Part shown: positions 17,219 to 20,133 of the stretch, in pieces
How the letters are laid out: each line of letters opens with the position of its first letter
How positions within the stretch are numbered: the stretch's first letter is position 1
Assembly (NCBI RefSeq): GCF_023015615.1
Contig: NZ_JALKAJ010000002.1
Span: 124,001 to 188,000, forward strand
Source of the DNA: Qipengyuania sp. S6317L1
GTDB lineage: Bacteria; Pseudomonadota; Alphaproteobacteria; Sphingomonadales; Sphingomonadaceae
Length of the DNA stretch: 64,000 bases
Direction: 5' to 3'
Notes under the pieces: generated by a model
The model's database searches: none
What the model saw: the letters and a program-made list of their open reading frames with translations, nothing else
What the model was told of the DNA's origin: nothing
Translations under genes and position numbers: made by a program

Positions 17219-18001
17219 ATGACTAAACGCTGCGAAGGCAAACTCGCACTCGTTACCGGCGGCGCTCAAGGGTTGGGCCGCGCGCATTGCATCCGTCTGG
17301 CGCAGGAAGGCGCGCGCGTTCTTGCCACCGATATCAACGGCGAAGGGGCTGCGGAAACCGCGAAAATCGTCAACGCCGAAATGGGCGCTGGCACCGCTTT
17401 TTCGATCAGCCACGATGTCACCGACCCCGCCGCATGGGAAGCCGCCGTGGACGCGGCGCGCGAGCAGATGGGCGGACTTAATGTGCTGGTCAACAACGCT
17501 GGCATCGGCGTTCCGGGCAATATCGAGGATTGCGACTTTGCCGATTGGCAGCGGTGCTTTTCAATCAATGTCGACAGCATTTTTCACGGCTGCCAGAAGG
17601 CGCTGCCCCTGATGCGCGAGCACGCGCCGGGTTCGATCATCAACATCAGCTCGATCGCCGGCCTTATCGCAAGCGACACCATGCCCGCCTACAACGCCTC
17701 CAAGGCGAGCGTGTGGATGCTGTCCAAATCCATCGCCCTGCACTGCGCGAAGAAGAATATGCAGATCCGCTGCAATTCGGTGCACCCGACCTTTGTCGAT
17801 ACCCCGATCCTTGATGGAACGGCCAAGTCCGCGCAGCTTGACAAGGACGTTCTGCTGGAAAAACTCGCGCGGCAAATCCCGCTGAAATTTGTGGGCGAAC
17901 CCAACGATATCGCCAATGCGGTGGTCTATCTCGCGAGCGATGAAAGCCGCTTTATGACCGGCGCAGAGATCAAGCTGGATGGCGGTATCTCGGCGATGTA
18001 G
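17219..18001 (+). CDS. SDR family oxidoreductase
   Basis: The 260-residue classical short-chain dehydrogenase starts at ATG 17219 after GGGAGAG; the reading from 17126 overlaps the NUDIX gene and is unlikely. Motifs are TGGAQGLG (cofactor binding), the acidic D in LATDINGEG favouring NAD, NNAG, catalytic Ser in NISSIAG and YNASK. A C-terminal DGGISAM is typical. It resembles hydroxysteroid or cyclic alcohol dehydrogenases, but the substrate is not determinable. A bidirectional terminator follows the stop. Confidence 0.85.
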   Translation: MTKRCEGKLALVTGGAQGLGRAHCIRLAQEGARVLATDINGEGAAETAKIVNAEMGAGTAFSISHDVTDPAAWEAAVDAAREQMGGLNVLVNNAGIGVPGNIEDCDFADWQRCFSINVDSIFHGCQKALPLMREHAPGSIINISSIAGLIASDTMPAYNASKASVWMLSKSIALHCAKKNMQIRCNSVHPTFVDTPILDGTAKSAQLDKDVLLEKLARQIPLKFVGEPNDIANAVVYLASDESRFMTGAEIKLDGGISAM

Positions 18002-18009
18002 GCAAAACA

Positions 18010-18036
18010 AAAGGGGCCTTGCAGAAGGGCCCCTTT
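18010..18036. terminator. Bidirectional intrinsic terminator
   Basis: AAAGGGGCC and GGCCCCTTT pair perfectly around a nine-base loop. The A and T tracts at the two ends serve both strands, ending the plus-strand SDR gene and the minus-strand PspC cluster. Confidence 0.8.
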
Positions 18037-18072
18037 ACGCTTGCGGTTCAGCGGTTCGCTTTTGAGCGATAC

Positions 18073-18288
18073 CTATTCGGCGATCAACGCAATTGCGAGG
18101 TAGATCAGGATCGGGAAACCCATCCCCAGAAGAACCGCGCCGACAAATCCGATGCGCCAGATCAGCGCGTCGACGCCCGACCAGTTGGCTAGCCCTGCGC
18201 AAACACCGAACAGCTTGCCGTTGGCTTTGTCCAGGCGAAAGCCGCCGCCTGCGGGTGGTTGGCTGTTGTTGCGGGTCAGATTGCTCAT
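18073..18288 (-). CDS. PspC-domain protein
   Basis: The 71-residue protein has a PspC domain: FRLDKANGKLFGVCAGLANWSGVDALIWRIGFV followed by a transmembrane helix (AVLLGMGFPILIYLAIALI). In phage-shock-protein systems PspC is an inner-membrane sensor that, with PspB, recruits PspA away from the sigma-54 activator PspF. The gene's ATG overlaps the stop of an upstream 53-codon ORF as ATGA. pspA, pspB and pspF are not in the window. It is the last gene of a minus-strand cluster that begins with a sigma-54-like promoter at 18852-18868. Confidence 0.88.
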   Translation of the reverse strand: MSNLTRNNSQPPAGGGFRLDKANGKLFGVCAGLANWSGVDALIWRIGFVGAVLLGMGFPILIYLAIALIAE

Positions 18289-18446
18289 GCAAGGGCTCCT
18301 ATGGTCGAAAGTGCGGCGTCGGGTGAAACGATGGATTGATTGGCAGCGTAGGTTCCTGCGACCAATATTACGGTGATCAAAAGGGCTCCGGCACCGGCCA
18401 TCACCCTGGCCGCTTTCGTGCTGGAAAGATCAAAAAACGAGTACAT
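18285..18446 (-). CDS. Small single-span membrane protein (53 aa)
   Basis: This short frame starts at ATG 18446 and ends with a TGA that overlaps the pspC ATG as ATGA, strong evidence of translation coupling. It encodes a 53-residue protein with a polar N-terminus (MYSFFDLSSTKAARV), a hydrophobic helix (MAGAGALLITVILVAGTYAA) and a tail containing SIVSPDAALS. The layout echoes the two smaller ORFs upstream. No family is recognised. An RBS is not clear (GGATAGGATA upstream). Confidence 0.6.
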   Translation of the reverse strand: MYSFFDLSSTKAARVMAGAGALLITVILVAGTYAANQSIVSPDAALSTIGALA

Positions 18447-18508
18447 TATCCTATCCTGTCAGTGGAATTTGCGGACAGCTTTTGAAGCGCTGTTCTCGTG
18501 CCCGCGCT

Positions 18509-18622
18509 TTATGCGATGGGGCTTGCGGGGATCATCGCATAAGCGGTGGCAACAACACCGGTGGTCACCATCAGGCTGAAGGCGGCGGCGAAGAAGCGGG
18601 TTGTGGTTTCGTTGGAAAACAT
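18509..18622 (-). CDS. Tiny membrane peptide (37 aa), paralogue of the 18678 ORF
   Basis: From ATG 18622, with AAAGG about ten bases upstream, this frame encodes 37 residues. The sequence has the same plan as the ORF at 18678-18788: a short N- and T-rich start, RF-x-AAAFSL, a hydrophobic span, then AYA-x-x-P-x-SP and an alanine end. Such paired conservation argues that both are real. It is probably a one-helix inner-membrane peptide of unknown function, expressed with PspC. Confidence 0.6.
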   Translation of the reverse strand: MFSNETTTRFFAAAFSLMVTTGVVATAYAMIPASPIA

Positions 18623-18677
18623 GGGTGGGGCCTTTCGTGAGTAGGGTGAGAGCTTTCGGGAGGAAAGCGTGTGGTCG

Positions 18678-18788
18678 TTATGCGATCGCTGGCGATCCAG
18701 GCACGATGGCGTAAGCGAACAGGGTTGCTGATACGACGAGTGAGAAAGCAGCAGCGACGAAGCGGTTTGCGGTGTTGTTGGCAGTCAT
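18678..18788 (-). CDS. Tiny membrane peptide (36 aa)
   Basis: The ATG at 18788 follows AGGAGA with good spacing; the longer frame back to 18869 would run across the promoter. The 36-residue product begins MTANNTANRF, has a hydrophobic helix (VAAAFSLVVSATLFAYAIV) and ends PGSPAIA. It shares RF-x-AAAFSL and the AYA...P-x-SP pattern with the next ORF downstream. It is the first gene after the sigma-54-like promoter. Confidence 0.62.
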   Translation of the reverse strand: MTANNTANRFVAAAFSLVVSATLFAYAIVPGSPAIA

Positions 18789-18851
18789 GATTGGTCTCCT
18801 AAGTTCAAGTTTTGGTTCGTTTTCCCGGCTAATCCGGGGACACCAAAGACA

Positions 18852-18868
18852 TTGCAGGAGGTGTGCCA
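18852..18868 (-). promoter_or_regulatory. Sigma-54-like (-24/-12) promoter of the PspC cluster
   Basis: The minus strand reads TGGCAC-ACCTCC-TGCAA. It has the invariant GG and GC of the -24/-12 elements at the right spacing, and differs from TGGCACG-N4-TTGCA at two positions. A start about 12 bases beyond the GC would give a leader of roughly 50 bases before ATG 18788. Sigma-54 control is known for psp operons in other proteobacteria, which supports the reading. Confidence 0.6.
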
Positions 18869-18952
18869 AACTTGAAAAATGGCGGAACTCTGCGGTTTAC
18901 GCGAAGTTACAATCCTTGCGCGCCGTTCATCATTCCGAAAGGTTGGGATTTT

Positions 18953-18991
18953 TCACCAAGAGTTAGTATCGGTGATTTTACGCTCACCAAG
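18953..18991. promoter_or_regulatory. Possible upstream activator sites
   Basis: TCACCAAG occurs at 18953-18960 and again at 18984-18991, 31 bases (about three helical turns) apart, and a GGTGA-N8-TCACC inverted repeat covers 18971-18988. They lie about 90-125 bases upstream of the sigma-54-like promoter, the usual place for enhancer-binding activators. This is inferred from position and repetition only. Confidence 0.3.
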
Positions 18992-19032
18992 GCTGTGCTT
19001 TCGTCCCGCCCCTGCTAGGCAATTTTGCAGCT

Positions 19033-20133
19033 ATGGCGCTTTCGAAAATCACCTTGCAGAATTTCCGCAACCATGCCGCAAGCGAGCTGGGGGACACGGC
19101 GCATTTCAACCTGCTTGTGGGCGAGAATGGCGCTGGCAAGACCAATGTCCTGGAGGCGATCTCGCTGCTTGCGCCGGGTCGCGGGCTAAGGCGCGCGCAT
19201 TTGGCGGATTTGGCACGCAAGACGTCCCCTGATGCAGCACCCGGAGCATTCGCCATCGGTGCGACCCTGATCGAGCAGGGCCAGACGTCGGCGCGCATCG
19301 GCACCTACACCGAAAGCCAGCGACCCACCCGCCGGCTTGTGCGGATCAACGGGGCGGAAGCAAAATCCTCTGCGCTCAGCGAATGGCACGCCGTGGCCTG
19401 GCTGACCCCTTCAATGGACGGCCTTTTCACTGATAGCGCGGGCGCAAGGCGCCGCTATATCGACCGTATGGCGCTGGCGATTGAGCCCACTCATGCGCGC
19501 CACGTCAACCAGTTGGAAACGGCTCTTCGCGAACGCAATCGCCTGCTCGAAGAACGCAGCGATGCCCGCTGGCTCGACGCGATAGAGGCGCAGGCCGCGC
19601 AGCACGGCAGCATGGTGGCCGAGACGCGAGCCTCGCTTGTTGCGCGCCTTTCGGATGAGCTTTCCGCCCTCCCCGCAGAACCGTTTGCGCGCCCTATCCT
19701 CACCTATCGCCCCGGCGGCCCGACGGGTCCGGAGGAATTGCTCGCTCAATTTGCGCGCAGCCGTCCACGCGACCGAGCCGCTGGCAGAGCCCTCACCGGC
19801 CCGCACCGCGATGAACTGGAAGTGGTGATGGCCACCAAGGACCGTTCCCCCGGCCCGCCTGCCGCCAGCTGTTCGACCGGCGAACAAAAGGCGATGCTGA
19901 TCGCGATCACGCTGGCGCACGGCGTTCTGGCATCGTCTGGCCGCCCCAGCGTGCTGTTACTCGATGAAGTCGCCGCCCACCTCGATCCGGTGCGGCGCAA
20001 AGCGTTGTTTGACCGCTTGCGCGCGGGCAAGGCACAGGTGTGGATGACCGGAACAGAGCTTGCGCCTTTTGCCGACATTCAGGAAGAAGCCGCCATCTGG
20101 CGGGTCAGCGGCGGGACGTTGGAGAGGCTCTGA
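19033..20133 (+). CDS. recF: DNA replication/repair protein RecF
   Basis: RecF binds single/double-strand DNA junctions and, with RecO and RecR, loads RecA at gaps. The 366 residues open with ITLQNFRNHAASEL and the Walker A GENGAGKTN, then DGLFTDSAGARRRYIDRMAL and GPHRDELEVV. The C-terminal ABC-type signature is STGEQKAML and the Walker B region VLLLDEVAAHLD. It is not next to dnaA-dnaN-gyrB here. It is divergent from the PspC cluster and convergent with the esterase gene, with two bases between stops. Confidence 0.95.
   Translation: MALSKITLQNFRNHAASELGDTAHFNLLVGENGAGKTNVLEAISLLAPGRGLRRAHLADLARKTSPDAAPGAFAIGATLIEQGQTSARIGTYTESQRPTRRLVRINGAEAKSSALSEWHAVAWLTPSMDGLFTDSAGARRRYIDRMALAIEPTHARHVNQLETALRERNRLLEERSDARWLDAIEAQAAQHGSMVAETRASLVARLSDELSALPAEPFARPILTYRPGGPTGPEELLAQFARSRPRDRAAGRALTGPHRDELEVVMATKDRSPGPPAASCSTGEQKAMLIAITLAHGVLASSGRPSVLLLDEVAAHLDPVRRKALFDRLRAGKAQVWMTGTELAPFADIQEEAAIWRVSGGTLERL

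Follow-up and report, generated by a model that had tools for sequence, protein, structure and literature searches.

In E. coli, damage to the membrane leads to the release of PspF from PspA. The Psp response has been studied widely, yet to our knowledge the role of its small membrane components is still unclear. According to the available text of two papers, PspF binding is established in E. coli at two promoters, those of pspA and pspG, and pspG, whose PspF/sigma-54 promoter is separate from the pspA operon, encodes a Psp effector (PMC2763126, PMC3709507). In the accessible part of a survey, LiaI of B. subtilis (liaIH operon) is a membrane anchor encoded together with a PspA-family protein (PMC9239133). 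For Zymomonas mobilis, a hypothetical protein, ZMO1062, is named beside the psp genes ZMO1061 and ZMO1063-1065, and the available text proposes no function for it (PMC3495753).

The window (the whole stretch of 64,000 nucleotides analysed, from Qipengyuania sp. S6317L1, a marine bacterium of the Erythrobacter kind) contained an operon (op2) encoding three paralogous proteins of 36–53 aa and PspC. Its promoter, like that of pspG, lay away from the pspA operon, but pspG is a single gene, and in profile scans no micro-ORF convincingly matched a PspG model or any Pfam family. By analogy, pspG may be considered the closest working analogue of op2. The position of LiaI beside LiaH resembles that of a ~50-aa ORF ahead of pspA described below; LiaI belongs to the Lia system and not to a PspF regulon, and it may serve as the closest positional analogue (PMC9239133). 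ZMO1062 is numbered between ZMO1061 and pspA (ZMO1063) and is perhaps a counterpart of this pspA-leader micro-ORF. Canonical pspABC shares with op2 the type of -24/-12 element, the kind of upstream site and the PspC domain. In contrast, op2 lacked pspA and pspB, its PspC was a short single-domain protein below the TIGR02978 cut-off, and it had a 5′ hairpin and an extra palindrome which were absent or weak at pspABC promoters.

As listed in Table 1, the four minus-strand genes from 18788 to 18073 that had been proposed from the letters of the window alone (the sequence-only reading) were present; the genome records analysed came without annotation. The motifs RFxAAAFSL and AYAxxPxSP were common to the first two ORFs, as claimed for paralogues, and the third ORF did overlap pspC.

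Table 1. Features of op2 and its surroundings (positions in the window)
Feature	Position	Strand	Remarks
Outer half-site CYAA, conserved	18963..18966	(-)	common to pspA promoters; columns conserved in op2 and psp sets alike
PspF-type upstream activating site TGGTGAAAAATCCCAA	18943..18958	(-)	74 nt before -24 box; sequence match
Near-palindrome, consensus GGCnGAATTCnGCC, then T tract	18881..18894	(-)	columns -26 to -6 of 46 op2 upstream regions
Sigma-54 -24/-12 element TGGCACACCTCCTGCA	18853..18868	(-)	GG/GC 12 nt apart; 10/12 consensus positions
Leader hairpin CCCGG-ATTAG-CCGGG	18824..18838	(-)	starts ~5 nt after predicted mRNA 5′ end; z -1.97
Micro-ORF 1	18678..18788	(-)	36 aa, predicted single-span protein
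Micro-ORF 2	18509..18622	(-)	37 aa, paralogue of micro-ORF 1
Micro-ORF 3	18285..18446	(-)	53 aa, diverged paralogue; its stop and the pspC start overlap (ATGA)
pspC, minimal PspC-domain protein	18073..18288	(-)	71 aa, PF04024 E=1.1e-12
Terminator-like hairpin 3′ of pspC	18011..18035	(-)	8-bp stem, 9-nt loop, then TTGTTTT; fold z -2.85

The PF04024 match of the window PspC scored 48 bits, above the Pfam gathering cut-off of 25, and its match to TIGR02978 (the PspC equivalog) scored 46.2 bits, below the curated full-length cut-off of 104. The terminator-like hairpin was read from the sequence and was missed by a consensus scan with a loop limit of 8. The operon was flanked on the opposite strand by a recF-like ORF (start 19033) and a short-chain-dehydrogenase-like ORF (end 18001), both named by eye.

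pspA and pspB were not adjacent to the window pspC; both were found at C3:513-516 kb, within a canonical locus (C3:512.8-516.0 kb) comprising pspF and then microORF-pspA-pspB-pspC. This pspF encoded a sigma-54 activation domain and a Fis-type DNA-binding domain. The genome contained one match to rpoN and seven strong sigma-54 activator domains, PspF included. A sigma-54 promoter with PspF as its likely activator, as the sequence-only reading had it, was thus supported, and what had been named as grounds against it was not encountered: rpoN and pspF were both present, and the promoter element and the short ORFs were conserved. The idea of a “streamlined” Psp module without PspA and PspB had to be given up, as a full pspF-pspA-pspB-pspC locus was present in the same genome, indicating that op2 is a satellite added to a complete system.

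At the pspA loci (L077-L106 and L004:3791-4819), the pspA frame was mostly open 5′ of the usual MGIFSRTRDII start, and in most of them the extended N-terminus carried a motif like SRLDxEVERLRxSPTPTQ. Several small PspB-like ORFs were seen 3′ of the canonical pspC (L004:5529-7462), with an N-terminal hydrophobic stretch and a C-terminal LExIVTD...EIexLR-like repeat; a scan of five of them gave no Pfam match.

The TGGCAC/TGCA element of the earlier reading, with correct -24/-12 spacing, was confirmed (Table 1), and placed the predicted transcript start near 18842, 54 nt 5′ of the first ATG. PspC matches were found at 57 loci, which were oriented by the match, and 53 of these were scanned for sigma-54 sites (one locus, L002, was the window again; L066 and L067 were omitted, and the matches did not include L001). 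A site with at least 10 of the 12 consensus positions was found upstream of pspC at 47 of the 53, and a strong site was absent at six. Two copies of TCACCAAG further upstream were present as reported (18953-18960 and 18984-18991, 31 nt apart), but not as a regulatory element: the far copy was at the aligned place in one of 46 upstream regions, that of the window itself, and the pair was rejected as a conserved enhancer. Only the near copy matters, since it overlaps half of the conserved upstream site (18943-18958).

The pspF-pspA gap of the same genome had a promoter of the same type (TGGCACACCCCCTGCA), and the upstream sites of the two promoters were alike both in sequence type and in their distance of 74-75 nt from the -24 box. 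A dyad close to TRGNGAAAAWTNCCAA was seen at the same place in 46 op2 and 29 pspA-operon upstream regions. All upstream-site patterns for the genome, distance and composite scans were drafted after the two promoter sets had been compared. One of them, TRGKRAWWWWTNCCMA, was written to fit both sites of the genome after both promoter sets had been viewed, and its two exact matches, at the op2 and pspA sites with no third in the genome, are therefore by construction; allowing at most one mismatch gave 15 matches (13 beyond the two exact) versus 6 in the reversed control. A weight matrix was built from 27 psp sites. Its best match lay 73-76 nt out in 42 of the 46 op2 promoters (in 34 of them at 74 nt precisely and on the same strand), and scored above the 99th percentile of shuffles (10.6) in 37 and at or below it in nine. 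Applied to the pspF-pspA gap of E. coli, this matrix picked TAGTGTAATTCGCTAA, a known PspF site. Best pattern matches were off-distance in three psp regions (53-54 nt) and two op2 regions (85 nt), and some relatives had weak sites, with four mismatches in L021, three in L035, L036 and L037, and three to four in the stand-alone loci L150, L151 and L152.

The best interpretation of op2 is that of a second arm of the PspF/sigma-54 regulon, making three microproteins and a minimal PspC, and we put its probability at about two in three. The regulation of op2 is well supported by sequence, from which we infer binding and activation by PspF. With seven strong activator domains in the genome, PspF being one of them, a different sigma-54 activator (NtrC-, FlbD- or PrsR-like) could drive op2 instead. 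This is very improbable, given that the upstream site matches that of pspA in kind and distance and resembles a site beside pspA in E. coli, and that the composite promoter was at background level where pspF was missing (below). The near-palindrome GGCnGAATTCnGCC and its T tract separate the -24 box from the PspF-type site; weak in 29 psp upstream regions, this element may be the site of a second regulator.

Co-occurrence was scored in 149 genomes of the family, with per-genome rows complete for PspC, pspF and the composite pattern, and with a threshold of E < 1e-100 for a “clear pspF” that was our own choice. A clear pspF was absent in ten genomes and a PspC match in ten, nine of them shared; the two exceptions (G022 and G082) were both assemblies 66-67% complete. 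rpoN was found in 148 of the 149. The composite pattern CCAA-N73-76-TGGCAC-N6-TGCW had 165 matches in the 149 genomes versus 33 for the reversed control, and in the ten genomes without a clear pspF it had 2 versus 2, which is background. Genomes without pspF were also without a psp operon. The composite and co-occurrence counts include the canonical psp locus and therefore support the whole system, not op2 alone. In other genera, composite PspF-type promoter matches preceded other small secreted-looking proteins (L169, L170 and L171), which are possibly further members of the regulon, or chance.

The ORF search covered 46 of the 53 loci, leaving out L014 (a near copy of L048) and the six without a strong site. 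One to three micro-ORFs were found between promoter and pspC at each of the 46. Short ORFs often arise by chance in DNA of this kind, and it is the conservation of the micro-ORF sequences that carries the weight. Among Erythrobacter-type sequences (12, 13, 10 and 13 for ORF1, ORF2, ORF3 and pspC), dN/dS was 0.22, 0.28 and 0.27 for micro-ORFs 1, 2 and 3 and 0.18 for pspC, while pN/pS in shifted frames of the micro-ORFs was 0.97-2.01; only pairs with pS < 0.65 were used (52, 50, 26 and 64), with sequences shared between pairs. The sigma-54 site at 47 of 53 loci, together with a dN/dS far below the shifted-frame pN/pS, indicated that the operon was beyond chance. Conservation of the short ORFs in relatives, as the sequence-only reading had expected, was thus supported by the 46 loci, an aligned family and dN/dS.

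A profile of the family gave five matches in the genome of the window with E < 0.001, plus ORF3 (0.017), and nothing else below 0.8; these were the three ORFs of the window and three at another locus. ORF3 was a diverged paralogue, and the third ORFs of relatives aligned with the family. Matches were found in 40 of the 149 family genomes and in 3 of 289 genomes class-wide (two from the own genus, and one weak match inside a 553-aa frame), suggesting that the family is narrow and fast-evolving as far as the profile sees. The window micro-ORFs had no Pfam match up to E=1, and profile searches of NCBIfam, Pfam and PDB gave weak, scattered matches only. Members of the family alignment (A1) matched four Pfam families, with PspG not among them at profile level; two rows matched cytochrome b559 beta (best 0.00083), which was taken as a chance likeness of short helices. 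The AlphaFold model of a micro-ORF product was a helix (residues 2-28) with a loose tail (mean pLDDT 80.3), and might be unspecific, as any single-span protein could show such a model.

The A1 alignment contained 50 of 65 ORFs, which had been chosen beforehand for their length and a pattern around AIxP, so that conservation of the motif is partly by construction; micro-ORFs lacking it (e.g. L017, L019, L021, L028, L035-L037, L042 and L062) were not included. A27 and P30 were invariant and Arg9 nearly so. A hydrophobic stretch (17-residue mean > 1.6) and, partly through the preselection, small-x-small-phi-x-P were present in all 50 rows. K/R did not occur after position 14, and D/E occurred in two rows. 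The net charge of the N-flank was 0 in 38 of the 50 rows, lending weak support to an N-in orientation.

These features would also suit exported peptides, in which signal peptidase I cuts at small-x-small (AYA|IVPASP...) and frees stress-signal peptides of ~9-13 residues into the periplasm or medium. Six of the 50 A1 members matched the Phr pre-peptides (PF11131) weakly (best E 0.0054), but this may reflect signal-peptide likeness alone, and diverged micro-ORFs (e.g. L035, L036 and L042) had only a loose version of the motif. A ~50-61-aa ORF also preceded pspA in 28 of 30 loci, most of them of the MYDRRFFQTKLGQAA...VELA type, and AxA occurred after residue 30 in 18 of the 28 and was absent from the other 10. 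We consider export with cleavage unlikely, and kept it in view because small-x-small-phi-x-P follows the hydrophobic stretch and AxA is found in those 18 pspA-leader ORFs. Slightly less likely again is its extension to sphingomonad-type bacteria at large, in which PspF-switched arrays of 27-55-aa proteins, beside pspC or alone and ahead of pspA, would be cleaved to ~10-residue peptides; if true, a peptide signal would report membrane stress outside the cytoplasm.

A third PspF-type promoter in the same genome (C1:141.5 kb, TGGCACGGGAGGTGCA, with a dyad at 74 nt having two mismatches) preceded three micro-ORFs of the window's family, without pspC, and then a terminator-like hairpin. A genome scan with TGGCACRNNNNNTGCA gave 9 matches versus 3 in the reversed control; six were outside the three loci discussed, three of them inside long open frames. 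A caspase-like gene (L107:4139-5917, Peptidase_C14 2e-23) was rejected as part of this third operon because of an intervening strong hairpin with a T tract (z -4.18), which the consensus terminator scan had missed. The caspase-domain protein, directly 3′ of the array, began like a signal peptide and matched Sel1 weakly.

Stand-alone micro-ORFs with site and promoter were also found in G121 and G120. Those in G019 and G105 had the same kinds of neighbour as op2 in the window, recF-like and dehydrogenase-like ORFs, and a weak upstream site, and G080 had stand-alone copies without a convincing promoter. In another genus (G001 and G095; L158-L161), arrays of three to four 27-35-aa ORFs were duplicated and had a good site, and their PspF-type promoters were near-identical to one another. 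The stand-alone stretches (L107, L145, L146, L148, L150-L153 and L158-L161) contained no PspC match better than E=0.4, which speaks for the microproteins as independent products.

These arrays bear on whether the micro-ORFs are regulatory leaders, whose translation or membrane insertion controls translation of the downstream pspC (or pspA), SecM and VemP being examples of secretion-sensing leaders. The likely ribosome-binding site of pspC lies within the last micro-ORF, which overlaps pspC by ATGA; this may explain the GVLA-type ending of that micro-ORF. Micro-ORFs precede pspA too. The window showed the arrangement of a SecM-like leader, with the regulated gene directly downstream; the stand-alone arrays did not. 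There, members of this family or a similar one followed a promoter of the same kind, and the fetched stretches (L107, L145, L146, L148, L150, L151 and L158-L161) contained no PspC match; the array in the same genome ended at a terminator-like hairpin. Up to four ORFs in a row are also beyond the need of a leader. Regulatory leaders are hence an improbable explanation.

Hydrophobic peptides of 27-37 aa in tandem arrays behind stress-type promoters also recall small toxins such as TisB, Ibs and Ldr, and might depolarise the membrane under stress. However, their hydrophobic stretch was nearly uncharged, unlike an amphipathic pore former, an Rfam scan of 17900-19100 gave no family match on either strand, and their linkage to pspC points to repair more than to damage. 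A toxin-like role seems most unlikely.

Leaders were taken from 45 of the 46 loci, no leader start being found in L016. Most relatives had a hairpin where the mRNA is predicted to start. The mean fold z was -2.21 for these 45 op2 leaders (40 below -1 and 25 below -2) and 0.09 for 29 psp leaders. RNAalifold on a MAFFT alignment of the leaders gave no consensus structure and no pairs, probably because the stems shift between leaders, and folding per sequence with a half-swap control was used in its place. The best 6-bp stem had on average 5.38 of 6 pairs, versus 4.36 in shuffled leaders and 4.72 when 3′ halves were swapped between genomes (maximum 4.91 in 300). Pairing above the half-swap control indicated that complementarity is kept while the sequence changes. 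On the simplest reading, the hairpin is probably a stabiliser of the 5′ end.

Taking op2 as this second arm of the PspF regulon, the following course may be proposed. Damage to the inner membrane would cause PspA to let go of PspF, and the freed PspF would bind at the dyad, ~74 nt 5′ of the -24 box, so that both the op2 and pspA promoters fire. The 5′ end of the op2 transcript would form the hairpin, probably stabilising it, and the transcript would yield three paralogous single-span microproteins and the minimal PspC, coupled via the ATGA overlap. These would enter the inner membrane, the microproteins N-in and C-out, and the microproteins would act as Psp effectors, alone or with PspC.

Among the matches listed in a search of the open-licence literature, no description of such micro-ORFs was found, and the available portions of two Psp surveys (PMC9239133 and PMC11237479) neither contain the word “sphingomonad” nor mention such ORFs. 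op2 is a conserved second operon of what is probably the PspF regulon, and the micro-membrane proteins that it encodes form a lineage-specific set. Similar arrays in relatives, some of them stand-alone, suggest that the Psp response includes very small proteins which have been overlooked. Predicted PspF targets can be listed concretely from the composite pattern, at up to four matches per genome, chance matches included. In many members of one bacterial family, PspF-type promoters seem to be devoted to proteins of 27-55 residues, and some of these transcripts seem to hold microproteins alone, offering a clean, testable case of microproteins as the main product of an envelope-stress promoter.
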